Origin: Flavobacteriales bacterium
GTDB taxonomy: Bacteria > Bacteroidota > Bacteroidia > Flavobacteriales_D > Crocinitomicaceae
Reading direction: 5' to 3'
DNA length: 64,000 nucleotides
Assembly (NCBI GenBank): GCA_947470515.1
Contig: CANITF010000001.1
Span: forward strand, 1 to 64,000
Under the pieces are notes generated by a model. It was not told where the DNA came from. It was given only the letters and a program-made list of their open reading frames with translations, and ran no database searches. Shown piece after piece: positions 18,773 through 38,000 of the stretch. Made by a program: the position numbers and the translations under genes. Position 1 is the first letter of the stretch. Every line of letters starts with the position of its first letter.

Positions 18773-18996
18773 GTAATAATTTTTCCGATTTTATTTCCCT
18801 TTTTCTTTTATCCATTTTTTATGGATGCATTTGTATAAAAACGAACAACCAAGTATAATCAAAAATCATTCAAAAGGTGAGATATGCCTCTATGGAAAAC
18901 GTTGATTAGTGTTTTTTAAATATATTCACGTTAATAAACTTGCATTTAGTTTTTTAATCTACCATTATTAATTAGAAAATCTAAAATAGAAGTTTC
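18773..18996. other. AT-rich gap with one small hairpin
   Basis: No coding frame is apparent. ATCCAT (18810-18815) and ATGGAT (18821-18826) can form a hairpin with a five-T loop. The right edge, from about 18997, is where similarity to the region upstream of the intact FadL-type gene begins. Confidence 0.4.
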
Positions 18997-19021
18997 TTTA
19001 TATTTTTTACTACATTCGTTC

Positions 19022-19333
19022 ATGCAAAAATTACTTTTTACACTGTTTATTTTGCTGTTCAATCATGCTGCTGTTTCCCAGGGATTCCAAGTTAATTTCC
19101 AAGGGCAAAAGCAACAGGGAATGGTTGGAGCTGGAACTGCTTTGCCAATTGACGGCGCTTCATTATTTTTTAACCCAGGAAGCACTTCTTTTTTAAAAGA
19201 AAATTCTATGAATCTTGCAATGACCCCAACATTTGCTCGAACCCTTTTCGTAGATGCAAATACCAATGAATCAGCTGGTTTCCAATATAAAGTTATAAAG
19301 CTTTTGTTTTTTCGAGCGAAAGGGTTGCTTTAA
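19022..19333 (+). pseudogene. Truncated FadL-type channel gene fused to a piece of the upstream membrane-protein gene
   Basis: Residues 1-85 match the intact FadL-type protein at 27313 with 81 of 85 identities (signal peptide MQKLLFTLFILLFNHAA, then GFQVNFQGQKQQG). The match continues about 25 bp upstream of the ATG. At about 19264-19275 the sequence switches within GAATCAGCTG to a stretch that matches 18202-18269 of the membrane-protein gene at about 54 of 68 positions and in the same frame (QYKV..LLF..AKGLL). A stop follows at 19331. A 103-residue product with a signal peptide and one barrel strand could in principle be made, but nothing suggests it works as a channel. The junction sits at a short shared motif in both parents, which points to recombination through microhomology. 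Confidence 0.85.
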
Positions 19334-19553: not shown

Positions 19554-22500
19554 TTAGTTTTTAGAAACTCTGAAGATTGAAGTTCCGTTTTCAGTTTTAA
19601 CTCTGAATATGTACATTCCAGTTTCGTAAGTTGATAAGTCAATTTTATCTCCATTAACAACTTGAGTAGCTCTTAACAATTTACCTTGTGCATCGATAAT
19701 TTCGATTGAAGCAGATGCACTAGACATTGTTACAGTTACATTATCTCTTGTTGGATTAGGATATAAGCTAATTACATCTAAAGACATTTCTGAAACGTTC
19801 ATGTAATCAATAACTACACAATCAGAAGTATCAGCACATGTTCCATTGCTTACTACAACCGAATACGAACCGTTAGCTGTTACTGTATATGTTTGTGAAG
19901 TTGCACCAGCAATTGCTAATCCAGTTCCACAATCAATCCATTCGTAAGTTGTACCAGTAGATGCTGTAATTGTAGCATCTCCGTTATCTGTTGCAACCGC
20001 CGTAGGTGAAACATTAATAGTTAAATCTAATGTTACCAATGAATCACAACCTGCAGCATTTGTTAAAACGAATGTAGCAGTGTTATTACTAGCAGTATAC
20101 GTAACACCATCAATCCAAGTATAAGAATCACAAGCTGTTTGTATATCTGTACCTGTTGTAGAAGTGTTAATTGTTAAATCTAATGTTACCAATGAATCAC
20201 AACCCACAGCATTTGTTAATACGAATGTTGCACTGTTGTTATTCGCAGTGTAAGTAACGCCGTCAATCCATGTATAAGAATCACATGCAGTTTGCACGTC
20301 TGTTCCAACTGTCGAATTATTAATAGTCAACACTAAAGTAGCTGTTGAATCACATCCAATTGCATTTGTTAAAACCTGTGTATGCGTTCCTGAAACATTA
20401 TACGTAACACCATTTGTCCAAGTATATGTATCACAAGCCGTAATTGGTGTAGAAGATGCAGAACTGTTATTGATTGTCAACACTAAAGTAGCTGTTGAGT
20501 CACATCCAACTGCATTTGTTAATACTTGTGTATGCGTTCCTGAAACAGTGTATGTTACACCATTTGTCCACGTATAAGTATCACAAGCTGTAATTGGAGT
20601 TGAAGATGTTGAACTGTTATTGATTGTCAACACTAAAGTAGCAGTTGAATCACATCCAGCAGCATTAGTTAATACTTGCGTATGTGTTCCAGATGCAGTA
20701 TAAGTTACACCATTTGTCCAAGTATATGTATCACAAGCCGTAATCGGTGTTGATGATGTTGTTGGAAGATTGATTGTCAACACTAAAGTAGCAGTTGAAT
20801 CACAACCAGCAGCATTTGTTAATACTTGCGTGTGTGTACCTGATACAGTATAAGTTACACCATTTGTCCAAGTATACGAGCTACATGCTGTAATTGGTGT
20901 TGATGATGTAGTTGGAGAAAGCAATGTAACTGCAGCAGTATTAGAACTTGTACAACCAGAAGCAAATGTTGCAGTTGCAGTGTAAGTGATGTTCGCAGCA
21001 ATACCAGAAGCAGATACACTTAATCCTGAAGTAGAAGAAAGATAGGTAGCCGGACTCCAAGTAACTGTATATAAGTCAACACCACCAACAATTGTAATGG
21101 TGTAATCCTCTGTTTCACCATACGATGATTGTGCTAAACAAGGATCCATCGTGCCGGTACCTGCAAAATCCATATCGCGAACACGCAATTTAGTTGTTCC
21201 GTTTTTTGCTGATAATGGAACAGTAAATGTAAATGTTGCACTAGCTGGTGCAGCACCAACGTCATCTGTCTCGCCTAATTTTTCACTAACATCAGTTAAG
21301 GTTCCATTTTGATTGAAATCTATCCAAGCAGCTAAATCATTTTCGGTGTAAGTTCCTGGAGACAAAGTAATCGTATACGTAGAACCAGCAGTTAATGTTG
21401 TAGTTGTTGCCCCAGCTGTTGGATACAGTGTATAATACGGAGCTGCTGCTCCAGCTGTTGCGTTGTTCAACGTATTTAATTGTACTGAACTGATGTAATC
21501 ACCAAATACAGTTCCGGAAGAATAAGTTGGTTGACAATAGCTAGGAGCAGGAATTGCTGCTACTGCTGTTAACACAGAGTTTCCGTTACATGTCGAAGCA
21601 GGTGTAGCAGTTGCCGTTAAAGATGGAACTGTATTAATAGTTACAAGAACTTGATCTGTTGATGTACATCCATTACCATCAGTACCTGTTACTGTATAAG
21701 TAGTTGTAGTTGAAGGTACAAATGCAACAGCATTTGAAACACCATTATTCCAAGAATATGTGTTAGCACCAGCGCCAGTAAGTGTTACAGCGGCACCAGG
21801 GCACACTGTTTGATCAATTCCTGCATTTGTTACTGGAAGTGCATTAACAGTTACAGTAACTGCTGTTCTTGCTGGACTTGGACAAGCGCCATTTTGACCT
21901 TGAGCATAAAACGTATAAACTCCAGGAGTTGCAGTTGATGGCAAAATACTTGTTCCTACAGTTTCAAATGGTGATCCTGAACCTAATTGTGTACCACTTG
22001 TTGCAGCATTCCACCAAGTGATTGTTGCAGGAGAAGGAATAGTATAGTTGATTGTCAACGTTGCGGCTGAACTTCCTAGTGGGAATGTTACATCCGCACC
22101 AGCTAAATCATTAAAATCATCCCAGAACAGTAAATTAAGTGTTCCTCCATTTGTAGGGAAACCAGCTGTTGGAATTGAACGCGTGTAATTGTAAGGCGTA
22201 CCTGCAACTGTTCCAAATCCTAGAGTTCCAGTTCCTGCTGCTGCAGCATTAGTAAATGCTCCGGATAAGCCAAGTCGTGCATCACTTTGATATTCACCAC
22301 CGTTAGGAATCAATCCGTTACAGTTTAATGTTAATCCTGTAATTACAGCCCCAGCAGGTAGTGTTGGAAGTGTTAATACTGAAATAACTGAACCTGGAGC
22401 AACATTAACTTCAACAGGTTGAGCTAATAAACTAAAATTAACAACAGTCGTTTGCGGTGTTGGAACACTTGTCGATGCACTTGCCGTAACTAATGCCGAA

Positions 22501-25500
22501 ACACTATTTTGACAAACACTAGCATTTGTTACCGTTGGATTTGTTATTGTTGTTGAAGGCTGAGATATTATTAAAGGCAATGCAGCAGAAATATAACCGT
22601 TTGCATCTTTAACAAGAACTGAATATGTTCCAGCAACTAAATTTGTTGGGATAGATCCGTAAGACCCACCATCAACAGAATAAGTATATGGAGCCGTTCC
22701 ACAAGTTGTGGTTCCTAAAGTAAACGAACCATCATTTCCAGCATTACATGTTGCATCGATCGGAGTAATAGCCGCTGCAAAAGGATTCACGGTTAAATTA
22801 ACTGAAGAAACAGCATTACAACCACCGTCAACACCTGCTAAAGTATAAGTATATGTTCCAGGTAAAGTTGGAGTAGCAATAGTTGAACTTCCGTTTACAG
22901 ATGCAATACCACTTCCGGCAAATCCAGTCCAAGTATAAGTATACGTTTGGTTTGGTGTAGGATTGGTATTTGTTGCAGTCAATGTAACAGATGAACCAAT
23001 GCAAATTGTAGCATTATTAATTGCAGCTAAAATTCCATCAGCAGTTGCGACAGTGACAGTAACCGCAACTCGTGGAGATTCACATCCCGTTGTTGTGTTA
23101 ACTTCGGCAACATAGAAAGTTGTAGTTGCTGCAACGTTAGAAGTAAATGTTGTAGAAGTACTATTTTGTAATACAATTCCAGCAACAGCTAAATCATACC
23201 ATTTGAACGTTGGAGTAGGCAAACCACTTGTTGAAGTAACAGATGCTGTAGGAATTTGAGTTCCACATTGAGCAGAGTTAAGTGCAGTTGGAACTGTTGG
23301 TAATGGGTTTACTGTAACAATAACAGTTGGTGCAGGAGAAAGAACACAACCTGCAGAAGTGATATTTGCAGTATAGGTTGTTGTTGTTGATGGGTTAACC
23401 GTTAATGGGTTTCCTGTACCAACTGTTGTTACGCCGTCTAACCAAGTTACAGAAGTGATAGCAGGTGCTTTATTTCCTGTAAAAATCAAATTAGGTCTGT
23501 TTGAACTTGTATTACTAACTGTAGCTGTTGAACAAGTATTTGCAATAACTCCATCAGCATTATAGTTTACAAATGAACCAAATGATGTTGTTGTCATTGT
23601 ATTCACAGAACTTGTAGATCCTGTTACACCATTTGCAAAACAATATTCTACGATAATATTTGATGTTCCATCCCAATAAAAGGGAGTTGAGAAATTATGA
23701 GTATTTGTTCCAACAACAGGTGTAAATGTAATAGGCCCATAGACATTAGTAAATGTCGGTGTTTGGAATGTTGTAATTGCAGTAGCATTTGTTGGCGCAA
23801 TTTTAATAGAGAATCCGGTTACAGCAACTGGAGAACCAAGTGCAGATACAACAGAAGAAACGTCTGTTAAATTTCCGGCAATAAATCCAGAAGAATTAAG
23901 TTCAGATGCAAGAATTAATATTTGAGCTCTTCCATTCCCCCAATATGTTCCATAAAATGCTCCAACAGCAGTGGAAGATGCATTTGAGCTTGTACCATTT
24001 CCGACTTGAGCGCTCCCAATTTTGGATAAAGTTGCAGTTAAGCTTGAAGGACTTCCTGCACATACTGTAGCTATTGATGATGAAGCGCTAGCAGTTACTC
24101 CAGTAAGTGGTTCATCTGAATAAGATGTACCTGTATACGAGCTATTCAGTCCAAGTGTATTAGTAGCTGATACACCCCAAGCAATTAGTGCATTTGCAGG
24201 CACAGGAAGGGGCAATGTTGCTACCCAAGTTGTTCCAACTGTATTTGTCATTGGAATATTTGCTTGAGGAACACCGTTTATTGTGTAACCAAGATTTACC
24301 ACTGTAATTGTCCCAGAAACAGTTGTAACATTAACTGAAATAGTTCTAGCGGCTGCAGCACATTGTGATGTTGTAGAAGGCGTTACGCTGTTTAATGTAA
24401 TTACTGGAGCAGGAGAAACGCCTGCGAATTCGTAAGCACCCATATCTGGGTTGCTTCCAGCACCAACATAACCAGCATTACCTGCTCTTGTGGCAGCAGT
24501 ATAATCTGTTGTAATTCCAGCAATATTAGTTGCTCCACTTTCAACTTGTGTTGTAATTCCAGCAACAGGTCTTAAGAAATCAACTGACGAACCAGTTAAA
24601 TTTGTGAAGAAAGATCCCGGTGTACCATAAGTGAATGCTTCACCAGTAAATGAGTTTGCATCATGACCTAATGGTAAGACAGAAGTTTGATAACCCAACA
24701 TTGTCTGTTGAGGAGTCGTTCCATCTGTAAAGATTAAGTTCGTTAATGAAGCAACGCCTGCATACAATAAATTCTTATTTGAAGTTGCAGCTAGATTTGT
24801 TGCATTCGCAGTTGCTCTTCTGAATGCAACTGTTAAACCTGTTCCTGCAAAGGCAGATTCATTGATGATAATGTTGTTACGAAGATCAAGAGCTCCAGTT
24901 GTTGCGGTTAAAGACCCTGTTTGATAAATCCCTGTAGTCCCAAAATTGGCACCTGCTGACGTTGCATTTAAATAGATTGAATTATAAGAAACTCGTTGAT
25001 TTGAAGAAGCAACCGTTGATGTTACTTGTATACCAGCAATTGCATTAATTGAATTTGCCAATGGAGCAGTTAAACCAGATATAAGATTATTGTATGTATT
25101 AACTGTAACGCCACCTTGAAGAGCAATACCATTAACAACCAAATTCGATGTTATTGCTCCTGAAGCTGTAATCGAATAGATCTTGTTGTTGAAAATATTT
25201 TGTGTTCCTGCGGTTCCAATAGCAGCAATTCCTGCTGTTAACGGAGCCGTTACTCCAGAAACGGTAAGGTTAAAAATTTCGTTGTTGAATGTGTTTGTAG
25301 TATTTGTAGCAGCGTTAATAATACCTACCGCTTGTCCACTTGCACCTGTTGTGCTCAAACCGAATATAATATTATTGTTGATATTAAGTGCAGTAACCGC
25401 GCTTGCCCCTGCAGTAATAGCGATAACATTTCCGCCAGTACCAGTAGAACTAAGGTTGGTAATTGTGTTAGTTGAAATTACTTGGTTTGTCCCTGAATTC

Positions 25501-27113
25501 AAAGTTCCAAAGTTAATACCGGTAATAGCCCCTTGACCTGTTATGTTATTAATAACATTATTGCTAACAACTGTATTGTTCCCACCGTAATTTTCTGCAA
25601 TTGCAGTTATTGCTGAAGTGCCACCAATCCAGTTTGTTAGTGTGTTTCCAGAAACAGATTTAGTCGGTGATCCACCACATAAGTTTTGAATCCCTGTGAT
25701 TGTTGTTGCACCAGTAACAGTAATATTTGAGAAGTTATTGTTATTAGAATTGTTAACTGTACCTGCTGGATCAGAAGCAAAGTCATAAAATAATTGAACA
25801 GTTCCTCCAGCACCTGTTTTGCTAAATGCGGTTGTGATAGCATTATTGTTTACATTTTTAGCACCACCTGCAGGAAGTGTATTACTATTTCTTATGAAAT
25901 CAACATTTCCTGTTGTTTTACAAATAATATTCGTAAATGTATTGTTACTGATACTTTGTGTTAAATGTGTTCCTAATTGTGCAATGAAAACTATTGCTCC
26001 AGAAGCGGTACCAGTTGTATGATCAAAACTATAGAAATTATTTGAATTTATATTTATTATTGAGGTAATACTAGCACTAGTTCCAGCAATATTAATACCA
26101 TTCATTGCCCCTGTAAGCAAACCAGAATTTAAACTAATAGAGTTATTGTTGATATTCTGAGTAAAAGTTCCTATCGGTGCATTTGAGAAGGCTGGGAATT
26201 GAATTCCGTTTAAAGTTCCTGCTGTAACACCTCCGATAGAGCTAGTAATTGTATTATAAGAAACAGTTGCGTTTTTCGAATTTCGAACCAAAATACCATT
26301 AACTGTTCCCGAAACATTTGCGTAACCACTGAAAGTTCCAGTTGTACCGTAATTAGTAAGTGTATTACCCGTTAGAGCACTTGTCCCCCCAATGTCAATG
26401 CCATCATTATGATCAGCAGCAGCAGTTGGTCCAACAACAACAATTCCTTGATTGACATTGCTTATTGCATTGGAGTAGATTTTTAAACCACTATTTCCAC
26501 CTGTTGCAGTTGTTGCTGTTGCAGAAGTAGTAATTGTTCCCAAAGCATGTGTGGAGTTTGAATAGATACCAAAAGTGTTTTGATACGTTCTATTTAATGT
26601 AATTGTATTACCAATAATTGAACAGTTTTGCGCACCATCGGTTGTTGTTAAATACAATAATGCGATTCCCCACTCAGTCATAGTATTTGTTGCAGCAGCA
26701 GTTACTGTGTTAGCTGCATTTTCTCTCAAATCTAAATTTGAAATAGTAATATAATCACCACCTTGAATTTTAAAAATTGCATCGTTTAAATTACCTACAG
26801 TTAAGGCTGAAGATGCAGTTATAATTGGCAATGGTGCACCTCCAGTTCCTGCAATAGTAATTGGGTTAGCTACTGTACCTGTTGCAGTGATTAAAAATCC
26901 TCCAGCCGGAGCAGTTTCCGTGTATCCTGCAGGAACATTCAATGTTACACCGCCAGCACCAACACCTTGCGTATTTAAGTCTGTAACAAATGCCGCAATC
27001 GAAGCGTAATCTGTTGGGATAGTTTTTGTCCCTGTTAATTGCGCTTTCAATGAAGAAAACGAAAAGGCCATTACAAAAAGTAATAATGACGTTGTAAAAT
27101 TTAAATTTTTCAT
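19554..27113 (-). CDS. Giant T9SS type A cargo: beta-helix, Ig-like, GEVED and tandem-repeat domains
   Basis: A 2519-residue secreted protein. The start at MKNLNFTTSLLLFVMAFSFS gives a proper signal peptide ending near SLKAQ; the 18 residues upstream lack one. Residues about 30-895 form a parallel beta-helix-like region rich in Asn/Thr rungs, ending at NPDMGAYEF. Ig-like and choice-of-anchor-type modules follow, then a GEVED domain (about 1860-2005; AAWIDFNQNGTLTDVSEKLG and YGETEDYTITI). Six tandem repeats of about 50 residues come next (about 2070-2370; core TPITACDTYTWTNGVTYT), and the chain ends in a T9SS type A sorting domain (ISLYPNPTRDNVTV, YETGMYIFRVK). Repeat copies are nearly identical at the DNA level. 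Likely a surface adhesin or filament-like protein. The divergent gene upstream encodes the FadL-type channel, with 200 bp between the starts. Confidence 0.85.
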   Translation of the reverse strand: MKNLNFTTSLLLFVMAFSFSSLKAQLTGTKTIPTDYASIAAFVTDLNTQGVGAGGVTLNVPAGYTETAPAGGFLITATGTVANPITIAGTGGAPLPIITASSALTVGNLNDAIFKIQGGDYITISNLDLRENAANTVTAAATNTMTEWGIALLYLTTTDGAQNCSIIGNTITLNRTYQNTFGIYSNSTHALGTITTSATATTATGGNSGLKIYSNAISNVNQGIVVVGPTAAADHNDGIDIGGTSALTGNTLTNYGTTGTFSGYANVSGTVNGILVRNSKNATVSYNTITSSIGGVTAGTLNGIQFPAFSNAPIGTFTQNINNNSISLNSGLLTGAMNGINIAGTSASITSIININSNNFYSFDHTTGTASGAIVFIAQLGTHLTQSISNNTFTNIICKTTGNVDFIRNSNTLPAGGAKNVNNNAITTAFSKTGAGGTVQLFYDFASDPAGTVNNSNNNNFSNITVTGATTITGIQNLCGGSPTKSVSGNTLTNWIGGTSAITAIAENYGGNNTVVSNNVINNITGQGAITGINFGTLNSGTNQVISTNTITNLSSTGTGGNVIAITAGASAVTALNINNNIIFGLSTTGASGQAVGIINAATNTTNTFNNEIFNLTVSGVTAPLTAGIAAIGTAGTQNIFNNKIYSITASGAITSNLVVNGIALQGGVTVNTYNNLISGLTAPLANSINAIAGIQVTSTVASSNQRVSYNSIYLNATSAGANFGTTGIYQTGSLTATTGALDLRNNIIINESAFAGTGLTVAFRRATANATNLAATSNKNLLYAGVASLTNLIFTDGTTPQQTMLGYQTSVLPLGHDANSFTGEAFTYGTPGSFFTNLTGSSVDFLRPVAGITTQVESGATNIAGITTDYTAATRAGNAGYVGAGSNPDMGAYEFAGVSPAPVITLNSVTPSTTSQCAAAARTISVNVTTVSGTITVVNLGYTINGVPQANIPMTNTVGTTWVATLPLPVPANALIAWGVSATNTLGLNSSYTGTSYSDEPLTGVTASASSSIATVCAGSPSSLTATLSKIGSAQVGNGTSSNASSTAVGAFYGTYWGNGRAQILILASELNSSGFIAGNLTDVSSVVSALGSPVAVTGFSIKIAPTNATAITTFQTPTFTNVYGPITFTPVVGTNTHNFSTPFYWDGTSNIIVEYCFANGVTGSTSSVNTMTTTSFGSFVNYNADGVIANTCSTATVSNTSSNRPNLIFTGNKAPAITSVTWLDGVTTVGTGNPLTVNPSTTTTYTANITSAGCVLSPAPTVIVTVNPLPTVPTALNSAQCGTQIPTASVTSTSGLPTPTFKWYDLAVAGIVLQNSTSTTFTSNVAATTTFYVAEVNTTTGCESPRVAVTVTVATADGILAAINNATICIGSSVTLTATNTNPTPNQTYTYTWTGFAGSGIASVNGSSTIATPTLPGTYTYTLAGVDGGCNAVSSVNLTVNPFAAAITPIDATCNAGNDGSFTLGTTTCGTAPYTYSVDGGSYGSIPTNLVAGTYSVLVKDANGYISAALPLIISQPSTTITNPTVTNASVCQNSVSALVTASASTSVPTPQTTVVNFSLLAQPVEVNVAPGSVISVLTLPTLPAGAVITGLTLNCNGLIPNGGEYQSDARLGLSGAFTNAAAAGTGTLGFGTVAGTPYNYTRSIPTAGFPTNGGTLNLLFWDDFNDLAGADVTFPLGSSAATLTINYTIPSPATITWWNAATSGTQLGSGSPFETVGTSILPSTATPGVYTFYAQGQNGACPSPARTAVTVTVNALPVTNAGIDQTVCPGAAVTLTGAGANTYSWNNGVSNAVAFVPSTTTTYTVTGTDGNGCTSTDQVLVTINTVPSLTATATPASTCNGNSVLTAVAAIPAPSYCQPTYSSGTVFGDYISSVQLNTLNNATAGAAAPYYTLYPTAGATTTTLTAGSTYTITLSPGTYTENDLAAWIDFNQNGTLTDVSEKLGETDDVGAAPASATFTFTVPLSAKNGTTKLRVRDMDFAGTGTMDPCLAQSSYGETEDYTITIVGGVDLYTVTWSPATYLSSTSGLSVSASGIAANITYTATATFASGCTSSNTAAVTLLSPTTSSTPITACSSYTWTNGVTYTVSGTHTQVLTNAAGCDSTATLVLTINLPTTSSTPITACDTYTWTNGVTYTASGTHTQVLTNAAGCDSTATLVLTINNSSTSSTPITACDTYTWTNGVTYTVSGTHTQVLTNAVGCDSTATLVLTINNSSASSTPITACDTYTWTNGVTYNVSGTHTQVLTNAIGCDSTATLVLTINNSTVGTDVQTACDSYTWIDGVTYTANNNSATFVLTNAVGCDSLVTLDLTINTSTTGTDIQTACDSYTWIDGVTYTASNNTATFVLTNAAGCDSLVTLDLTINVSPTAVATDNGDATITASTGTTYEWIDCGTGLAIAGATSQTYTVTANGSYSVVVSNGTCADTSDCVVIDYMNVSEMSLDVISLYPNPTRDNVTVTMSSASASIEIIDAQGKLLRATQVVNGDKIDLSTYETGMYIFRVKTENGTSIFRVSKN
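20020..20925 (-). repeat. Tandem array of six repeats of about 150 bp inside the cargo gene
   Basis: The landmark GTCAACACTAAAGTA recurs at 20326, 20476, 20626 and 20776, an exact 150-bp period. Two related units of about 153 bp carry GTTAAATCTAATGTTACC at 20020 and 20173 instead. Each unit encodes one ITACDTYTW...GCDS...LTIN module. The high identity between neighbouring units suggests recent expansion or gene conversion. Confidence 0.85.
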
Positions 27114-27312
27114 ATTAATTTTATAATAATTGAGCCGTAAAGTTCGGATAATTTTAACGTAAATCAAAATTAATACATAAATGTTTTGAAACCACGCCTG
27201 TGATTAGCATGAGAAGGCTAACTAAAAGAATTTATCATTTTCTATTTCTTTGAAAATTTTGAATAAAAAAACATAAATAGGAGATTATTTGTATTTTTTA
27301 CTACATTCGTTC

Positions 27313-28536
27313 ATGCAAAAATTACTTTTTACCCTGTTTATTTTGCTGTTCAATCATGCTGCTTTTTCCCAGGGATTCCAAGTTAATTTCCAAGGTCAGA
27401 AGCAACAGGGAATGGGTGGAGCCGGAACTGCTTTGCCAATTGACGGCGCTTCATTATTTTTTAATCCTGGGAGTACTTCATTTTTAAAGGAAAACTCAGT
27501 CAATCTTGCAATGACCCCAACCTTTGCTCGAACCCTTTTCGTAGATGCAAACACCAATCAATCAGCTAGAACAAACTCCCCAATGGGAACGCCATTTTCT
27601 GCTTATGCAGTTTATCGTAAATCAGAAGAAAGCAAGCTGTTTTTTGGATTGGCGGCATACACTCCTTTTGGAAGTACCGTTCAATGGGAAGATGGATGGA
27701 TGGGAAGATTTGCATTAACGCGCTTAGAGTTAAAATCACTATTTATTCAACCAACAATAAGTTATAAAATCACTGATAAAATTGGATTGGGGGCCGGATT
27801 CGTTTATTGTACAGGAAATGTGAACCTTCAAAAAGACATACCCGTGATGGATGCCAGTGGCACTTATGGTCATGCTGAATTGGCAGGAAAAGCAAATGGA
27901 TTTGGAGTGAATGCAGGAGTTTTTGTTCAAGCAACAGAGAAAATAGGGGTTGGTCTAACCTATCGTTCACAAGTAAATATGTCCGTTACGAATGGGCAAG
28001 CAACGTTTGTTGTCCCGTCTTCTTTGGAAGCGAATTTCCCAAATGGAAGTTTTTCTTCCTCTTTACCCTTGCCTCAAGTAATAACATTGGGCTTTTCTTA
28101 TAAGCCAACGGATAAATTGTCACTTGCTTTGGATGTAAATTATGTCGGTTGGAAAGCTTATGACACCTTGGCTTTTGACTATGAAACGAATACAAGTTCT
28201 TTGTTCGATACGAAATCAGTAAGAAGTTATGAAAACATCCTCGCCTTTCGCGGTGGAGCTAATTATGATTTTACAGATAAAATTGCTGCTCGAATAGGAG
28301 TGGCTTACGGCATTTCACCTGTTCAAAACGGCTATGTAACACCAGAAACACCAGATGCTAACCGAATCAATTATACCGCAGGTTTCAGTTATAAGATTGG
28401 GAAACATTTTGCCCTTGATGCTTCAGTTTTCTTTACTCATTTGAAAAGAACAGATACAAATATTGAAACGAATTTAAGTGGAACCTTCACAACAAATGTT
28501 GTTGCACCTGGTTTAGCAATAATTTATAGATTTTAA
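27313..28536 (+). CDS. OmpP1/FadL/TodX-family outer-membrane transport protein
   Basis: A 407-residue outer-membrane beta-barrel predicted to let hydrophobic molecules such as fatty acids cross the outer membrane. The signal peptide (MQKLLFTLFILLFNHAA, cleavage near FSQ) is followed by the family's N-terminal hatch region, GFQVNFQGQKQQGMGGAG, and the NP motif in SLFFNPGSTSFL. The chain ends GLAIIYRF with the terminal Phe expected of barrel proteins. The ATG at 27313 is preferred over the upstream in-frame ATG because it begins the signal peptide and because the duplicated copy at 19022 preserves it. The lipoprotein gene follows after 1 nt, so the two are co-transcribed. Substrate specificity is unknown. 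Confidence 0.9.
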   Translation: MQKLLFTLFILLFNHAAFSQGFQVNFQGQKQQGMGGAGTALPIDGASLFFNPGSTSFLKENSVNLAMTPTFARTLFVDANTNQSARTNSPMGTPFSAYAVYRKSEESKLFFGLAAYTPFGSTVQWEDGWMGRFALTRLELKSLFIQPTISYKITDKIGLGAGFVYCTGNVNLQKDIPVMDASGTYGHAELAGKANGFGVNAGVFVQATEKIGVGLTYRSQVNMSVTNGQATFVVPSSLEANFPNGSFSSSLPLPQVITLGFSYKPTDKLSLALDVNYVGWKAYDTLAFDYETNTSSLFDTKSVRSYENILAFRGGANYDFTDKIAARIGVAYGISPVQNGYVTPETPDANRINYTAGFSYKIGKHFALDASVFFTHLKRTDTNIETNLSGTFTTNVVAPGLAIIYRF

Positions 28537-28537
28537 G

Positions 28538-29890
28538 ATGAAATTAAAAAACACGCACTTATTAGTAGCCTTAGGAATCCTTAGTTTGACTTTTTCATGT
28601 AAGCCAAAAGAAACAGCAATAGAAGTTTCTGCAGGTGATGTTGACGCAACTCGTTTTGTTTCAATTGGCGGCATAGCGACAAGTGGGTTTATGGATGATG
28701 CTCTTTATGCTGAAGGACAAGAAAATTCTTTAGGAGCAATCCTTTCAGAGCAGTTTAAATTAATCGGAGGGGGAGATTTTAAGCAGCCCTTGATGCCAAA
28801 TAATTCGGTTGGTTGGAGTGAAATTGGTTTGTCGCGATTAATTTTAGGCTACAAAACAGATTGCTTGGGCGTAACAAGTTTGTCTCCAGTTCGAATTGCA
28901 AGTCAAGGTGATTTAACTGGTTTTGGAAGCTATGTGTACAGTTCCAGCAATAAATTCAATAATTTCGGAATACCTTTTATAAAAACCACTGAGTTTTCAA
29001 CTCCCGGAATTGGAAATCCAGCAAATGGACAAGGACTTTATAATCCCTTTTTCACTCGAATGGCTTCTGATCCTCTAAATGGAACGATTAAAGCAGATAT
29101 CTTAGCTAAAAACCCGACGTTTTTCACCTTATTTACGGGAATGGATGAGGTGTTGGAATATGCTAAAAACGGAGCAAGTACCGGAAATTTGACACCTGTA
29201 AATGGTGCTGTTGGTATTGGCTTTGATGGAAGTATTACTGATTTGCTGATTGATTTAACCGGAAATGGTGCGCGCGGAGTAATCTCCAATATCCCAGATG
29301 TAACGGATTTTCCATATTTCACAACAATTCCGTTTGACGGATTAAACTTAGATGCCGATAATGCTTTAACGTTGAATGAAATTTATAACCCAATTGGCAT
29401 TTATTTTCAAGTTGGAAAAAATGCTTTTGTTATTAATGATCCAACGGCTGGGGCTTTTGGGGTGCGACAAATGGTAGAAGGAGAGTTAATTTTATTGAGC
29501 GTCCCTTTAGACTCGTTAAAATGTAATAAAATGGGTTCGGTGTTTCCATTCAGAAATGAATTTATTCTTACAAACCCAGAATTATCAGAAATAAGAAATA
29601 CAATCAATGGATTTAATACGGTTTTGTCATCAGCTGCAACCAATTATAACTTGGCTTATGTTGATTCTTATTCTTTCTTCAAGCAACTTAAAACAGGAAT
29701 AGTTTACAATGGAATTTCCATAACTGCAAAATTTGTTTCTGGTGGAGCATATTCATTAGATGGAGTGACACTAAATCCAAGAGGAAATGCACTTTTAGCG
29801 AATGAATTTATTACTTCCATAAATCAAAAATATAAAGCAACTATTCCGAAAGTTGATGCCACAAAATATAGAGGCGTTATTTTTCCATAA
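28538..29890 (+). CDS. SGNH/GDSL-hydrolase-like lipoprotein lacking catalytic residues
   Basis: A 450-residue lipoprotein with lipobox LSLTFSC (Cys21). The fold matches the Bacteroidota SGNH-hydrolase lipoproteins often encoded beside FadL-type channels: FVSIGGIATSGF (40-51), ALYAEGQENSLGAILSEQF, PTFFTLFTGMDEVLEYA (around 201-204) and SLDGVTLNPRGNALLANEF (around 406-424). The catalytic positions are changed. Block I, normally G-N/D-S-L, is Gly44-Gly45-Ile46-Ala47, with no Ser nucleophile. The G-x-N-D block is Gly-Met-Asp-Glu, with no oxyanion Asn. The D-x-x-H block is Asp408-Gly-Val-Thr411, with no His. The open frame is full length, so this looks like a retained non-enzymatic protein, perhaps a binding partner of the channel. 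Comparison with active relatives is from memory of the family. Confidence 0.8.
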   Translation: MKLKNTHLLVALGILSLTFSCKPKETAIEVSAGDVDATRFVSIGGIATSGFMDDALYAEGQENSLGAILSEQFKLIGGGDFKQPLMPNNSVGWSEIGLSRLILGYKTDCLGVTSLSPVRIASQGDLTGFGSYVYSSSNKFNNFGIPFIKTTEFSTPGIGNPANGQGLYNPFFTRMASDPLNGTIKADILAKNPTFFTLFTGMDEVLEYAKNGASTGNLTPVNGAVGIGFDGSITDLLIDLTGNGARGVISNIPDVTDFPYFTTIPFDGLNLDADNALTLNEIYNPIGIYFQVGKNAFVINDPTAGAFGVRQMVEGELILLSVPLDSLKCNKMGSVFPFRNEFILTNPELSEIRNTINGFNTVLSSAATNYNLAYVDSYSFFKQLKTGIVYNGISITAKFVSGGAYSLDGVTLNPRGNALLANEFITSINQKYKATIPKVDATKYRGVIFP

Positions 29891-29914: not shown

Positions 29915-31234
29915 ATGAAAAAAACAATTACTTTTCTTTCCTTATTTATTTCGGTTTTAGGCATTGCGCAAGAACCTTGTTCTACTGGACGTTATTCAAG
30001 TGACGTATATCCAACAACAACATTAACATCAAATATTGTTTATGGACAGAACTTGAATTATGCTGGGACAAATAAAATCTTAAAATTAGATTTCTACGAA
30101 CCAACAAGTGATACAGCAACAGTTCGTCCTTTAATAATCTGGATACATGGTGGTAGTTTTTTAGGTGGAACAAAAACAGATGCTGACATGGTAGCGTTGT
30201 CTCAAGCTTTTTCTAAAAAAGGATATGCTTGTGCATCAATCGATTATCGAACAGGATTTTTCCCTATAGATTCAGCTAATTCTGTGAAGGCAGTTATGAG
30301 AGCGGTTCAAGACGCTAAGGCTGCATTACGGTTTTTCTATAAAGACAGAGCTGATGGGACGAATACATATAAAATTGATACAAATAATATTTTTATTGGG
30401 GGATCTTCTGCCGGAGCGATAACAGCATTGCATTTGACGTATCTAGACAGAACGTGTGAAATTAATGGATATGTGCCAACGGGTAATCTTACAGCGCTTG
30501 GTGGACTTGAAGGAAATAGTGGGAATCCTTGCTATTCGTCTAATGTGAATGGCGTAATTAATTTATGTGGAGCTTTAGCGAGTTATGGTTGGTTAGAGGC
30601 TGGTAATTTACCTTTATGTTCAATGCACGGTACAAATGACGGAACTGTAAAGTATAATCGCGGAGTTGTGAATCCAGGTGTTCCGTTAATGTATTTAGAT
30701 GGTAGTCGAATGCTACATGAACAAGCTCAAGCAGTTGGTGTACAAAGTAATTTTTATACGTTTCATGGCGCGGGTCACGTGCCCTATCTTGGAGGAGGGG
30801 CATCAGCTGTAGCGTATATGGATACTACAATTAATTTTGTAAGAGACTATCTAATTGATCGATTAGCGTGTACCAATCCTATTTTGCAAGCACCAAACAC
30901 CCCTGCTCAAACAGCAACGTTATATCCTTTTACACCTTGTTCTGGAAATGTTTCTGTTGATTTTTGTACTGGAGCAGGTTTATCAGAAGGGTTTTCTAAT
31001 TTAAATCTTAAAGTATATCCAAATCCATCTTCAAATGACATGACGATTGAGTGGACGACAGAAACAGAAATGTCTATAGAATTATGTGATTTTTCAGGAA
31101 GAAGGTTACATTCTAAAAAAGAATTTGGAAAAAATTGTGTTATCGAACGAAATGGTTTGATTAATGGAATTTACTTATTGAAATTGACCAATAAGTCTGG
31201 CGAAACAACAACACAATCTATTATATTTAATTAA
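29915..31234 (+). CDS. T9SS-secreted alpha/beta-hydrolase (carboxylesterase-like)
   Basis: A 439-residue secreted esterase. The signal peptide ends near LGIAQ. The alpha/beta-hydrolase core has the oxyanion motif in IIWIHGGSFLGG, the nucleophile elbow GSSAG with Ser165, a likely acidic residue in HGTNDGTVKY, and the catalytic His in FHGAGHVPY, so the triad appears complete. The C-terminal 75 residues (LKVYPNPSSNDMTIEW, NGIYLLKLTNKSG) form a T9SS type A sorting domain, placing the mature enzyme outside the cell or on its surface. It lies 24 bp after the SGNH-like lipoprotein gene and overlaps tspO by 1 nt, so it belongs to the same transcription unit. Substrate unknown; an ester of a lipid would fit the FadL-type neighbour. 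Confidence 0.87.
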   Translation: MKKTITFLSLFISVLGIAQEPCSTGRYSSDVYPTTTLTSNIVYGQNLNYAGTNKILKLDFYEPTSDTATVRPLIIWIHGGSFLGGTKTDADMVALSQAFSKKGYACASIDYRTGFFPIDSANSVKAVMRAVQDAKAALRFFYKDRADGTNTYKIDTNNIFIGGSSAGAITALHLTYLDRTCEINGYVPTGNLTALGGLEGNSGNPCYSSNVNGVINLCGALASYGWLEAGNLPLCSMHGTNDGTVKYNRGVVNPGVPLMYLDGSRMLHEQAQAVGVQSNFYTFHGAGHVPYLGGGASAVAYMDTTINFVRDYLIDRLACTNPILQAPNTPAQTATLYPFTPCSGNVSVDFCTGAGLSEGFSNLNLKVYPNPSSNDMTIEWTTETEMSIELCDFSGRRLHSKKEFGKNCVIERNGLINGIYLLKLTNKSGETTTQSIIFN

Positions 31235-31695
31235 TGAGATTTCTTATATTTTTACTTATAAACTTCGGAGCCCTCGCATTGGGGGCTCTTTTTATGGGCG
31301 AAAGTCCTGCAGATAATGAATGGTATAAAAACCTTAATAAAGCACCTTGGACTCCTCCAGGATGGGTGTTTGGCTTTGCATGGAGTTTTATCATGATTAC
31401 GTTTAGCCTTTATATGTCTCGTGTTTTCGTTGAGTTTAACGGAGTTTTGCTAAGAAAATTGATGGTACTTTTTTCGTTACAAGTTGTTTTTAATATATTG
31501 TGGAACCCTGTTTTCTTTCAATGGCACTTGAGCTTGTTAGGATTGTTTATTTTGGTTTTTATTATTGTCCTACTCGTTTTTATACACTTGGATTTCTCTG
31601 ATAAGAAGAAGTTTAACACCTTATTGATCGCCCCTTATTTTCTTTGGTTATTAGTGGCTTTTTCATTAAACTTATATGTAGTTTTGTATAATTAA
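31234..31695 (+). CDS. tspO: TspO/MBR family tryptophan-rich sensory protein
   Basis: A 153-residue inner-membrane protein with five predicted helices, the usual TspO size. Diagnostic features are the loop-1 motif WYKNLNKAPWTPPGWVFGFAW and the N-x-x-WNPVFF motif in helix 3. TspO proteins bind porphyrins, cholesterol-like molecules and other hydrophobic ligands and are linked to stress responses; the ligand here is unknown. Its start codon shares an A with the stop codon of the upstream esterase gene (TAATG), which implies translational coupling. It closes the cluster that begins with the FadL-type channel. Confidence 0.93.
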   Translation: MRFLIFLLINFGALALGALFMGESPADNEWYKNLNKAPWTPPGWVFGFAWSFIMITFSLYMSRVFVEFNGVLLRKLMVLFSLQVVFNILWNPVFFQWHLSLLGLFILVFIIVLLVFIHLDFSDKKKFNTLLIAPYFLWLLVAFSLNLYVVLYN

Positions 31696-32004
31696 ACGAA
31701 GGTAGTTAAGGTTTAGCTATTTTATTTGTTGTTAAGGCAACCGATTATTTATAAAACCGTTTTATTTATATAGATTTAGTTTTAATCTTTTGGAGTAAAA
31801 TTTTGTTGCGACTTGCGGCTTTGGCAACTTTGAAATAGAAGTGCTAACTTATGAATTAATCTTTAATTTATGTTAGCATGAAGACCAACTGATTTTTTGT
31901 CCGTAATGTTGAAGTGTGAAATTTGTTGATTGTTGGAAATTATATTTCACGAGATATGCTTTTTCAATTATCAAAATAAAGAACATGAATTAATTGATAG
32001 GCAT
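31696..32004 (+). promoter_or_regulatory. Upstream region of the SprB-repeat adhesin gene with two inverted repeats
   Basis: The 309-bp gap has no gene. TGCTAAC (31842-31848) pairs with GTTAGCA (31872-31878), and GTGAAAT (31916-31922) pairs with ATTTCAC (31944-31950). Both are spaced by A/T-rich loops of about 21-23 nt and lack T-runs, so they are not typical terminators. They may be operators or leader structures of the large adhesin gene. No full TTG-N19-TAnnTTTG match was found. Confidence 0.35.
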
Positions 32005-35000
32005 ATGAAAACATCTACTTTACTTCTCATTTCGATTTCATTAATCCTATGTGTGAATTTTTCTTTCACACAAGAAGAACACCATAAGTTTGATGAAGTA
32101 TTTTCTTCGTTATCATTAAGTAATGTTGCAGAAGCAGCAGAAATTGAAGATAGGTACTATTCAGAAAATGGTGTTCAAGAGTTTGTTGATTCTTCCTATA
32201 TGGATTTTCAAGAAAAAATAAAAGAGTTACTAAAATCTAATCCAAGCAATTCAATTTCTGATATTGATATAATTAAGAAAACTTTTTTGTTCAAACTTAA
32301 AGAAGATGTGTTGCTCATCCCAAAAGAAAAAAATCCTAAGCCAGATATTATTAAAGTTTTAAATGGACCATGTATTAACATGGATTTTGAAACTGGAAAC
32401 ACAACAGGTTGGTCCTTATTTACAGGAACAAGAACCAATGCAACACTCTATAATTTTTCGGGATCAACACCAGTTGGACCTGGAGCAAATCATCAAATAT
32501 TTGGCGGAGGAGTAGATCCAGTTGTTGGCATCCCAAGAGTTTTTCCTGGCGGAAGTTTTTCATGCAGACTAGGTAACGGCACAACTACAGGGTCAGGAGC
32601 AGCTAGAATGACTCAATCATTCTTGGTAGACCCAACAAATATGTATTTTACTTACAATTATGCGGTTGTTTTTCAATCACCTAATGGACATACTGCAAAT
32701 GAGCGTCCTTATTTTACTGTTCGTGTTTATGACGCAAGTGGGAATAATGTGGCTTGCGGTGAATACTCTGTTTATGCTGACCCTGTAAATGCCGCAAATT
32801 TTCAGTCTATTGTTGTAGGCTCAAACACGGTGTTATATAGAAATTGGACATCGGTATTTACAAATTTATCAGCTTTAGTTGGTCAAAATGTAACAATTGA
32901 ATTTACCGCTGCTGACTGTTCTCTTAGTGGACATTACGGTTATGCATACGTAGATGCATCTTGCGCATTTCAACAATTAATTGCAAGCCCTGGGTTTATT
33001 TGTCCAGGTCAAACATCAACTTTAACTGCACCTTCTGGTGTTGGAACTTATTTATGGAATACAGGCGCCACAACTCAAAGTATAACAACCGGTATTGGAG
33101 GCACATATTCATGCACGTTAACTCCTCCACAAGGCGTAGCTTGCTCTGTTGTCTTGACTGTTCCGGTTACAGTTTACCCTCAACCAATCGGAGGTTTTAC
33201 AATTACGGACCCATCTGTTTGTTTGGGGACAACTACGTCGATTACGAGTACTTCGAGCATACCCGCTCCTGGAGTTATTAGTACTTATCAATGGAGTTTT
33301 GGGGATGGAATTAATTCACCAGCCTCGAGCGGAAGTATTACGGGTGTTACCAATACAACAGGGACTTATACCGTTTTAGATCATACCTATGGTGCTGTTG
33401 GAACCTACAACCCAGTTTTAACCGTAGTTTCCACGAACGGTTGCACAAGCACGTTCACATCTCCAATTACTGTCGCACCTTTACCATTACTTTCCACGAC
33501 TAAAATAGATGTATTGTGTAACGGTGGATTAACAGGATCTATAAATTTAACGGTCACTTCCGGTTCTGCTCCTTTTACATTTTTATGGAGTAACGGTTCA
33601 ACTTCAGAAGATTTAAGCTCTTTACCCGCGGGGATCTATTCTGTTGTTGTAACAGATTTAAATGGTTGTACTGGGACAACAACGTTAACAATAAATCAGC
33701 CTGCCGCACCTTTAACTCTTTCTTATACTCAAACAAATGTTTTATGTTTTGGAGCATCAACGGGTGCTATAAATATAAGTGTTGCAGGGGGAACAGCTCC
33801 ATATACCTATTCTTGGAGCAATGGTTCCACAGCGCAAGATTTAAATAGTTTGCCTGCCGGAACTTACACTGTAAGTGTTCACGACGCGAATGGGCTAACA
33901 AACGGATGCGCAGCTACAACATCAGTTACAATTATTCAACCAGATACACCTGTGACCTTAAATAGTACACAATTGAATGTATTATGTAATGGTGGTGCAA
34001 CAGGATCTATTGATTTAACTGCTATTGGCGGAACACCAGGATATATTTATTCGTGGAGCAATGGCTCTGTAACACAAGATATTGTAGGATTAGTTGCAGG
34101 AACTTACTCAGTTAATGTGCATGATGCCAATGGAACAGCAGGAGGCTGTGCAGCAACTACATCAATTATAATTACACAGCCAACGGCATCAATTTCATTG
34201 ACTTTTACAAGAGTAAATGTATTATGTAATGGAGGCTCAACAGGTTCAATTGATTTAACAGTTGCAGGAGGAACAGCTCCGTATACATATACTTGGACAA
34301 ATGGGGCTACAACTCAAGATCTTTCTAGCATAGCCGCAGGAACATTCACAGTAACTGTTACAGACGCCAATGGTTCATCAGGGGGGTGTTCAGCAACTTT
34401 GGCAATTACGATTTCCCAACCCTCAGCACCAGTCTCATTATCTGCAATTCAAACAAATATCTTATGTTTTGGGGCCTCTACAGGTGCAATTAATTTAACA
34501 GTTGCGGGCGGCACAGCCCCATATATCTATTCTTGGTCAAATGGCGCAGCGACTGAAGACCTCTCAGCTTTACTAGCAGGAATATATACCGTTACCGTTA
34601 CAGATGCGAATGGTTCTATAGGTGGTTGTTCAGCATCAACATCTGTTACAATTACACAACCTTTGGCGGCATTAACTATATCTGCCATACAAACGAATAT
34701 TTTGTGTTTTGGCGCAACGACTGGGGCAATTGACTTAACACCATTAGGTGGAACTTCACCGTATACTTATTTGTGGAGCAATGGCGCAACTACCCAAGAT
34801 TTGTCTTCAATTTCTGTTGGAACTTATACTGCTACAGTAACCGATGCTAATGGAAATGCAGGAAGTTGCGCGGCGACTGCTACTGTTACAATTACACAGC
34901 CAACAGCTCCTTTAATATTGACATCATCAAAAGTGAATGTTTTATGCAATGGAGCATTAACGGGTTCAATCAATTTATCACCAGCTGGTGGAACGGCACC

Positions 35001-38000
35001 ATACAACTTTGTTTGGTCTAATGGGGCAGTGACAGAAGATTTGATTGGTTTGGCTGCAGGAACATATACTGTTACAGTAACTGATGCTAATGGATTAACA
35101 GGAGGTTGTGCCGCAACAACTTCAATCACAATTACACAACCGACTTCACCAATTACGGTTTCAACAACACAAACAAACGTGCTGTGTTTTGGTGCATCTA
35201 CGGGAGCAATCAATTTGACCGTTGCAGGTGGAACAGCGCCTTATTCATACGCCTGGAGCAACGGAGCAATAACTGAAGATTTAACAGTAATTCCAGCTGG
35301 AATATACACTGTAACAGTAACTGACGCGAATGGCTCAGTTGGTGGTTGTACAGCAACAACTTCAGTTACAATTTCACAACCAGCAGCGGCTTTAACTATT
35401 TCAAGTACACATGTTAACGTTCTATGTAATGGGGCAATTACTGGTTCAATCGATTTAACACCAGCAGGAGGAACAGCACCTTATACGTATTCGTGGAGTA
35501 ATGGTGCAACTACGCAAGATATTACGAATTTACCGGCCGGTTCATATACTATCAATGTTCATGATGCAAATGGTATTGCAGGATCATGTGCGGCTGTTGC
35601 AACAATTATAATTACACAACCAGCGGCTCCATTAACATTAACCTCTTCAAAAGTAGATATTTTGTGTAATGGAGGAAATACAGGTGCTATCAACTTAACT
35701 CCCGCTGGCGGAACAGCACCTTACACCTTTTCATGGTCAAATGGTGCAACATCAGAAGATTTGGTAGGGTTGACCGCCGGAACTTACACAGTATCTGTGA
35801 CAGATGCAAATGGATCAATAGGAGGGTGTGCTGCTTCTACGACAATTACAATCACACAACCAGCAGCTCCAGTAACATTAAATACTGCTCAAACAAATAT
35901 TTTATGCAATGGAGGAAATACAGGTGCTATCAACTTAACAGTCGCAGGAGGAACATCGCCTTACTCATATGTGTGGAGCAACGGAGCAACAACTGAAGAC
36001 TTAACAACTTTAATTGCCGGAACTTATACTGTAACGGTAACGGATGCGAATGGCTCAACTGGAGGATGCACTGCAACCGCAACAGTTACAATTACTCAAC
36101 CTTCGGCACCCTTATCTTTAACTTTTACACAAACCAACGTTTTGTGTAACGGCGCTGTAACTGGGGCGATTAATCTAACACCTGCAGGAGGAACCTTACC
36201 ATATACTTATACATGGAGCAATGGTTCATCCTCTCAAGATCTTAATGGATTGGCAGCTGGAACATATACTGTCAATGTGCACGATGCAAATGGTTTAGCT
36301 GGAGGTTGTGCCGCAACAGCAACTATCACAATCACACAACCAACTGCATTAACTCAAACTATTTCAGCGTTCATTTATCCTTCAGGAACGAACATTAGCT
36401 GTTTCGGATTGTCAAATGGAAGTGTAAACTTAACAATAGGAGGCGGCGCACCAGGATATTCATATGTATGGTCGAATGGAGCAATAATAGAAGACCTAAC
36501 GAATGTCCCAGCTGGAAGTTATACAGTAATTGCAACGGATTTAAATGGTTGTACAATTACATCATCTATTAACTTAACACAACCATTGATTTTAACATCG
36601 GGCGTTGTGCCTTCGCTTTATGCAGGTGGTTTCAATTTAACAGGTTGCGCAAACAACGGAACAATTGACTTAACTGTTGGAGGGGGTAATCCAGCATACA
36701 GCTATGCTTGGTCGAACGGTGCAACCACCCAAGATTTAACCTCTTTACCAGCAGCCCCTTATTCCGTAACAGTTACAGATTTGAATGGTTGTCAAACAAT
36801 AAGTTCGATAACATTAACAACTCCTCCTCCTTTAACGCAAGCAATTTCAGCATTTACTTATCCTAGTGGAACAAATATTAGCTGTTTTGGCTTATCAAAT
36901 GGTTCAATTGATTTAACAATCAATGGTGGAACGCCACTTTACACCTATGTTTGGTCAAATGGTGCCACATCTCAAGATTTAACAAATGTTCCAGCTGGAA
37001 CGTATTCTGTAACTGTTACAGATTTAAACGGTTGCACAACAACATCCTCAATTACTTTAACGCAACCAACAGCTTTAACTTCAGCACTTGTGCCTTCGGT
37101 TTATGGTGCATACAATGTTTCAGGATGTGTTGCCGACGGATTTATTGATTTGACAGTTTTAGGAGGAAACCCGGGGTACACTTATGCTTGGTCAAATGGT
37201 GCCTTATCGCAAGATATTTCATTGCTTATTGCAGGAAATTACATTGTGAATGTAACAGATCTAAATGGCTGTATTACTTCAAGCAGTATAACATTAACGC
37301 AACCATTAGGTTTAACTCAAAGTATTTCGGCAACTACTTTCCCGAGTGGAACAAATATTAGTTGTTTTGGATTAAGTGATGGAAACATTGATTTGACCAT
37401 AGGCGGGGGTAATTCACCATATACATATTTGTGGAATACTGGAGCTACAACACAAGATTTGACCAATATTCCAGCTGGAACATATAGTGTTGTAATTACG
37501 GATTTAGTTGGTTGTCAAATATCAAGTTCAATCACATTAACACAACCGTTACTTTTAACTCAAACTATTTCAGCCGCAGTTTATCAAAGTGGATCGAATA
37601 TCAGCTGTTTCGGTTTATCAGATGGTTCAGTTAATTTAACTATTAATGGGGGAAGCCCGGCCTACACCTATTCTTGGTCTAATGGAGTAACGACCCAAGA
37701 CTTAGCGAATATTCCTTTTGGAACATACACTGTTTTAGTAACGGATGTAAATGGCTGCAGTGTTCCTTCAACAATTACCTTAGTTCAACCAACCGCTTTA
37801 ACACAAAGTTTAATAGCATCAACATTTCCAAGTGGAACAAATATTAGTTGTTTCGGATTATCAGATGGCAACGTGGATATCACAATTGGAGGGGGAAATC
37901 CAGGTTACACTTATTCTTGGTCAAATGGAGCACTAACACAAGATTTGACGAATGTGCCAGCAGGAGTTTATAATGTTGTAGTAACAGACCAAAATGGATG

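Follow-up and report, generated by a model that had tools for sequence, protein, structure and literature searches.

Background

To our knowledge, little is known about the accessory proteins of FadL channels, a family that AupA resembles. In the alkane uptake system, AupA and AupB form an operon-encoded pair of an outer-membrane protein and a second membrane protein that serves the uptake of hydrophobic compounds, according to the available part of its description (PMC5989066), but AupB is an inner-membrane protein, unlike the lipoprotein partner considered here. A FadL-family barrel is also paired with a lipoprotein in the outer-membrane assembly machine of the Bacteroidota, where the two proteins are BamG and BamH (PMC12611786, PMC12578637, in the portions available). 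These accounts do not describe BamH as an SGNH protein, and the main text of both is free of the terms hydrolase, GDSL, and esterase, whereas the lipoprotein of the present locus is predicted to have the SGNH fold.

The plant protein At1g54030, also named MVP1, GOLD36, or ERMO3, has no link to a channel or to a replacement esterase that we know of. It is a GDSL-family protein reported to be without lipase activity and to be kept for another role (PMC4757993, in the part at hand), and it is compared here with the bacterial lipoprotein by description alone. Single SGNH-superfamily pseudoenzymes are thus already known from that source, as are FadL-lipoprotein pairs from the available accounts of BamG and BamH. 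With the SGNH/GDSL hydrolases in general (PF00657, PF13472) the lipoprotein shares its predicted fold, the order of the sequence blocks, and the catalytic Asp408, but its Ser, oxyanion Gly, Asn, and His are all replaced and its score lies below the PF00657 cut-off. Its direct homologues are intact FadL-linked SGNH lipoproteins from other Bacteroidota (e.g., L038, L041, L121) and from the same family (L114, L115), which differ from it in keeping all five catalytic residues. In the titles and abstract openings of the literature searched (subscription papers lay outside its scope), no description was found of a set made of a FadL channel, a pseudo-SGNH lipoprotein, and a secreted esterase; neither this combination, nor how widely it is spread, nor the linkage to the secreted esterase turned up there.

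Methods

The window is the whole stretch of 64,000 nucleotides that was analyzed; its source genome comprises 3.0 Mb in 58 contigs and is 99.94% complete. Homologues of the lipoprotein were taken from 201 loci (one of them, L001, irrelevant) and comprised 191 distinct frames with a minimum length of 330 aa; a column was considered conserved when it reached at least 93% in the 53 intact homologues, which gave 47 such columns. A quick tree was built from 187 rows with the catalytic blocks removed (L051, L152, L155, and L160 were left out) and a careful tree from 71 rows hand-picked from the 191. Adjacent esterases were counted with the catalytic-domain profile alone, since the T9SS tail by itself inflates the matches, and eight rows of the esterase tree belonged to loci that had dropped out of the lipoprotein set when duplicate rows were collapsed. 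Several FadL analyses used a reference beginning one codon early (27310).

Results

Gene order around the lipoprotein

The first gene of the likely operon (27313..28536, forward strand) encodes a FadL/OmpP1/TodX-type outer-membrane channel of 407 aa (PF03349), and the open reading frame of the lipoprotein, a predicted SGNH-fold pseudoenzyme of 450 aa with its lipobox cysteine at position 21, begins 1 nt past the FadL stop codon (28538..29890, forward strand). The third gene (29915..31234, forward strand) encodes an alpha/beta-hydrolase esterase of 439 aa that combines a BD-FAE/Abhydrolase_3 domain (PF20434) with a T9SS C-terminal sorting tail (PF18962), and the next one (31234..31695, forward strand) a TspO/MBR-family membrane protein (PF03073, 8.7e−27). 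The start of the TspO/MBR gene overlaps the esterase stop codon, and the gene is also present downstream in all four same-genus loci (L032–L035). TspO proteins bind hydrophobic ligands, and for this reason the TspO/MBR gene may be part of the operon as well. A promoter scan remained at chance level (18 found vs. 17.4 expected).

Two very long, repeat-rich, surface-type open reading frames flank the operon, one at 19554–27167 (2537 aa), which contains tandem 150-nt repeats, and one at 31930–42276 (3448 aa). A 300-nt stretch with the start of the FadL gene (27259–27558) is repeated with 91% likeness at 18968–19267, on the other side of the 2537-aa gene from FadL. The terminal letters of the open reading frame of this stray copy (19022–19333) resemble, by eye, a part of the protein encoded at 16753–18717, so the copy looks like a duplication scar.

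Predicted fold and family membership

The preliminary description had taken the lipoprotein frame to be full-length apart from its altered catalytic blocks, and its AlphaFold2 model (24-sequence alignment; mean pLDDT 87, pTM 0.86) bears this out with a predicted SGNH fold. The highest structural similarity was to 8h09_B (VIA Z 17.9, rmsd 2.9, 214 residues aligned), and most of the structural matches listed were SGNH/GDSL enzymes by title, the nearest solved folds being the Vibrio thermolabile haemolysin (8h09), which was solved with fatty acids, the esterase LAE5 (5jd3), and the acetyl xylan esterase Axe2 (3w7v). By sequence alone the assignment is marginal, as the window lipoprotein scored 22.6 bits on PF00657 against a cut-off of 23.6 and gave no match to PF13472; among the 24 aligned homologues, 19 matched PF00657 and 18 matched PF13472 (E 0.001). 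No NCBIfam family matched the window lipoprotein at E 1, and the NCBIfam model for PG1828-family lipoproteins matched one of the 24 homologues. The predicted fold places the window lipoprotein in the SGNH/GDSL fold family by descent. No second copy of it was found in its genome, where the two proteins matching PF13472 are other GDSL proteins, and a motif reading by eye suggests that both keep the SGNH residues.

The available part of PMC12578637 gives at least two acidic residues among the six that follow the lipobox cysteine as a criterion for surface exposure. The window lipoprotein has one such residue, and two are found in seven of the 63 members of its clade (described below), so surface exposure of the lipoprotein is unsupported, and the protein may, judging from this signal, be oriented toward the periplasm, on the other side of the membrane from the secreted esterase.

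Loss of the catalytic residues

Altered catalytic blocks were the starting point of the preliminary description, and they are real: GGIA at residues 44–47, GMDE at 201–204, and DGVT at 408–411 stand where intact relatives have GNSIT, GNND, and DGIHLTP. Alignment with these relatives identifies the loss of Ser, Asn, and His claimed there as the replacement of the nucleophile Ser46 by Ile in block I (G44-G45-I46-A47-T48-S49-G50; 28667..28687), of the oxyanion Asn203 by Asp in block III (G201-M-D-E; 29138..29149), and of His411 by Thr in block V (D408-G-V-T411; 29759..29770), all on the forward strand. A fourth change, absent from that account, is the replacement of the oxyanion Gly147 by Phe in block II (G144-I-P-F147; 28967..28978, forward strand), which reads N-F-G-I-P-F in the window lipoprotein vs. 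N-M-G-V-P-G in most intact relatives. The Ser, Gly, Asn, and His that characterize an SGNH enzyme in blocks I, II, III, and V are thus I46, F147, D203, and T411, and Asp408 is the only one of the five catalytic residues that is retained. The same states occur in two relatives from separate assemblies (L032, L033) and nearly the same in a third (L034, with Leu46 and Tyr147), which makes sequencing error unlikely.

All five residues (S46, G147, N203, D408, H411) are kept in 53 of the 191 homologues. The window lipoprotein deviates at seven of the 47 conserved columns (45, 46, 147, 203, 204, 405, 411), every one of them in or beside the catalytic blocks, and four of the five catalytic columns are among these seven (hypergeometric p 0.0009); the same test was weaker on the whole 63-row clade (three of five, p 0.029) and not significant on a second pseudo clade (p 0.097). 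An intact catalytic set relocated to other positions was sought in the 63-row clade and not found, the best histidine column other than 411 being column 47 (30/63). In an SGNH lipase, a single exchange of Ser, Asn, or His for Ala is enough to abolish activity, whereas Ala in place of Gly leaves the enzyme active (PMC10779480, in the part available), and on this ground we strongly infer that the window lipoprotein is without catalytic activity; given the residues that it carries, we hold it highly probable that it is not a hydrolase.

Selection and conserved positions

In the preliminary description the protein was seen as a pseudoenzyme that has been retained, a view with which the clade-wide loss, a dN/dS of about 0.1, new invariant positions, and the lack of a conserved histidine elsewhere in the clade agree. 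In comparisons of the window with its three closest kin and of these with each other, dN/dS (Nei-Gojobori) was 0.09–0.12 for the lipoprotein and 0.05–0.08 for FadL, and over 23 pairs of the 63-row clade the lipoprotein had a median of 0.091 (0.041–0.232) vs. 0.134 for intact homologues, the latter from only three pairs; these values point to purifying selection. In the same clade, 87 columns are conserved at 95% or above. Seven residues (K106, D108, S116, R119, D325, S326, R339) are present in 63/63 members and variable in intact homologues, and they lie away from the catalytic blocks. In addition, Cys109 and Cys329 are present or absent together in 188 of the 191 homologues (both in 145, neither in 43, discordant in three), which suggests a disulfide between them.

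Distribution and graded loss

In overlapping samples taken at the level of the family, the order, and the class, a lipoprotein homologue (E 0.001) was found in 110 of 240, 115 of 399, and 131 of 395 genomes, respectively. In the 187-row tree the window lipoprotein falls within a clade of 63 rows (SH-aLRT 99), none of which is intact. Position 203 holds Glu in 43 of them and Asp in 20, and Gly147 is kept in 53 and Asp408 in all 63. Ten members have Ser46 and 36 have His411; these numbers include seven members with both, and 24 have neither. The seven members that keep Ser46 and His411 are without Asn203, and the residual Ser46 or His411 means that some members of the clade could keep weak activity. 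The loss is therefore graded, with Asn gone clade-wide and Ser, Gly, Asn, and His all gone in the four-row group of the window.

The 63-row clade is nested in a clade of 110 rows (SH-aLRT 99, 187-row tree) that excludes the second pseudo clade. In the 71-row tree, support was 100/99 for the window clade (16 sampled rows) and 100/100 for the second pseudo clade (10 rows). A small loss apart from these (L117, L119, L122) lies beside the intact L123 (100/99). This tree places the second pseudo clade inside the same ingroup and recovers the 110-row clade only with it. The fewest changes between intact and non-intact states were six in the 187-row tree and four in the 71-row tree, counting L049 (Gly147 to Ala alone) as not intact. 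With many deep branches poorly resolved, these counts are tentative, and the two pseudo clades may have lost catalysis separately or together.

The second pseudo clade consists of 34 rows within L107–L113, L128–L145, and L162–L192. Its members have Glu or Asp in place of Asn203 (34/34) and Phe or Tyr in place of Gly147 (33/34), and they keep Ser in six cases and His in 26. Residue 203 (29144–29146 in the window) is always an acid in both pseudo clades (63/63 and 34/34), in which Asp408 is never lost.

Linkage to the FadL channel

The upstream gene matched PF03349 with 156 bits against a cut-off of 29.7 and is the only such match in the source genome. Its model resembles E. coli FadL (Z 45.5, rmsd 2.3, 376 residues aligned) down to a canonical N-terminus, in which residue 23, the likely mature start, aligns with EcFadL residue 3, residues 2–26 of the model being below pLDDT 50. 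Going by this model, the window FadL is a transporter-type FadL. As a candidate AupA it was rejected, with 18.5 bits on NF041571 vs. a cut-off of 840.

The tie to a FadL-type channel that had been proposed for the lipoprotein holds well beyond the window. FadL is directly upstream in 63/63 members of the clade, with spacings of −13 to +19 nt, as well as in 43 of the 52 intact homologues whose upstream sequence extends to 600 nt or more. Once three very weak matches (G064, G067, G080) had been dropped, FadL and lipoprotein were jointly present or absent in 234 of the 240 family genomes (both in 105, lipoprotein alone in four, FadL alone in two, neither in 129), although the family genomes are related and so do not represent 240 independent cases. 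Adjacency and co-occurrence make a partnership of the lipoprotein with FadL well supported, and we regard it as very likely that the two act together.

In the second pseudo clade, FadL is directly upstream in 0/34 rows. An esterase is adjacent in another arrangement in nine of the 33 rows with room for one, and none was seen in the first flanks of the other 24. When 20 of the 34 loci were read with wider flanks, a FadL-esterase operon was found convergent to the lipoprotein gene in seven; in the remaining 13 genomes the esterase lies elsewhere (13/13), with FadL directly upstream of it in seven.

The downstream esterase

The third gene matched PF20434 (1.3e−21) and PF18962 (3.9e−11; 43.5 bits against a cut-off of 27), and SprA is encoded in the source genome (2435.8 bits against a cut-off of 200), so the product qualifies as cargo of the type IX secretion system. 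Its catalytic triad, assigned by motif as Ser165, Asp242, and His288, is intact; of 111 homologues, 110 have the Ser and all 111 have the Asp and the His.

An esterase lies directly downstream of the lipoprotein gene on the same strand in all 62 rows of the 63-row clade with room for one. Elsewhere in the 110-row clade it does so in 26 of 27 non-intact and seven of 18 intact rows, as against 0/33 intact rows outside the 110-row clade, one of which has a convergent esterase. Within the 110-row clade, 88 of the 89 non-intact rows are thus accompanied by an esterase and intact rows exist both with and without it, a pattern that fits an order in which the esterase was acquired first and the catalysis of the lipoprotein was lost later. 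A paired-lineage test of catalysis loss vs. esterase had only three to five independent pairs and no power, and with so few independent lineages the esterase-first order is not proved. The neighboring secreted esterase, to which the preliminary description made no reference, may nonetheless explain why the catalysis of the lipoprotein could be lost. Outside both pseudo clades, an adjacent esterase is absent in 10 of the 12 other non-intact rows whose flanks were examined, so the loss of catalysis does not require one.

The esterase itself is more widespread than the lipoprotein, with matches in 182 of the 240 family genomes, 76 of which are without the lipoprotein. In 20 lipoprotein-less genomes that were read, no FadL or SGNH gene was found beside the esterase (L260 had little upstream sequence). 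Fourteen of these lone esterases, from a single genus (L247–L260), nest among the operon esterases of the clade, and FadL and lipoprotein were therefore probably lost together there; the other six (L261–L266) are more distant. In L252, the one locus of these that was annotated, the esterase is flanked by a cyanophycin-synthetase-like gene on one side and by a gene for a protein with a T9SS-associated domain on the other.

Discussion

We propose that the lipoprotein arose from an SGNH esterase that was the partner of a FadL-type channel, that its hydrolase function is gone, and that it would now be a fixed non-catalytic partner of the FadL encoded by the preceding gene. The old acyl-binding cleft would most likely still hold a fatty acid, an ester, or the like as its hydrophobic ligand, which the lipoprotein would pass to or from FadL. 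The alpha/beta-hydrolase that the following gene encodes and the T9SS exports would cleave esters at the cell surface, in place of the lipoprotein. As a whole, this explanation (a non-catalytic FadL partner that likely binds an acyl or other hydrophobic ligand, with hydrolysis by a secreted esterase) has in our estimate an even chance of being correct. Taken by itself, the step in which the lipoprotein binds and hands over a ligand falls slightly below that mark. A ligand-binding subunit, as suggested in the preliminary description, is one of two roles that we consider viable.

The strongest competitor is a purely structural partner with no small ligand, one that stabilizes or plugs FadL or docks the esterase beside it, comparable to the way in which BamG holds BamH by its N-terminus in the available accounts (PMC12611786, PMC12578637). 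We rate it tentatively as a sizeable possibility, clearly short of an even chance. It would account for the bulk of Phe or Tyr147 at the oxyanion hole in the window lipoprotein, its three nearest kin, and 33 of the 34 second-clade rows, for clade-invariant residues situated away from the catalytic blocks, and for the co-occurrence of Cys109 and Cys329. However, Gly147 is kept in 53 of the 63 clade members, and the contact with FadL or with the esterase is only putative here.

An enzyme that is still active, either through a changed active site (e.g., Asp203/Glu204, Asp408, or elsewhere) or in those members that keep Ser and His, seems improbable. The retention of Asp408 in 63/63 members and of an acid at position 203 throughout both clades would be compatible with a reused pocket, and seven of the 63 members have both Ser46 and His411, but there is no conserved Ser-His pair at other positions, the best alternative histidine column reaching less than half of the clade (30/63), and the window group, like 24/63 members of the clade, has neither Ser46 nor His411.

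It is very improbable that the two genes encode BamG and BamH of the outer-membrane assembly machine of the Bacteroidota, even if BamG resembles FadL and bears a lipoprotein at the surface (PMC12611786, PMC12578637, in the parts available). The window FadL scores 54.3 bits on the BamG model NF053685 against a cut-off of 250, and a better BamG candidate is encoded on another contig (232 bits, itself below the cut-off). The window FadL also lacks the extended N-terminus of BamG, its likely mature start aligning with residue 3 of EcFadL, and neither gene is present in 129 of the 240 family genomes, in contrast to a subunit that is universal in the phylum in the available text of PMC12611786. By structure it lies on another branch, with Z of at most 33.5 to chains of three BAM complexes taken as BamG vs. 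45.5 to E. coli FadL, and we rejected the FadL gene as BamG on this difference and on the profile score. BamH was absent among the SGNH structural matches listed for the lipoprotein model, which excludes nothing. Hardly credible at all is a decaying gene on its way out. The lack of a lipoprotein match in 130 of the 240 family genomes indicates that it is dispensable in some lineages, but dN/dS of about 0.1, full-length frames, the 87 highly conserved columns, and joint presence or absence with FadL all speak against decay.

Returning to the non-catalytic FadL partner, a longer history can be sketched, in which a T9SS esterase joined a FadL-linked SGNH esterase and catalysis was then lost in separate lineages, leaving the former enzyme as a FadL subunit. 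The resulting trio of a secreted enzyme (the esterase), a binding lipoprotein, and a channel (FadL) would be Sus-like, an analogue of the Sus system for lipid or aromatic esters. We consider this outsourcing of catalysis rather unlikely in its full form.

SGNH proteins of this kind are likely annotated as GDSL lipases, and as a consequence esterase numbers estimated from genomes may be inflated. If the proposed role is true, the Bacteroidota would have a FadL channel served by a lipoprotein of its own that is non-catalytic and of esterase origin, and the locus would offer a concrete case of an enzyme turned transport subunit, for which intact, half-lost, and fully lost relatives are all alive for comparison. 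The uptake of hydrophobic esters would moreover be tied to the type IX secretion system, and FadL channels would gain a testable partner.
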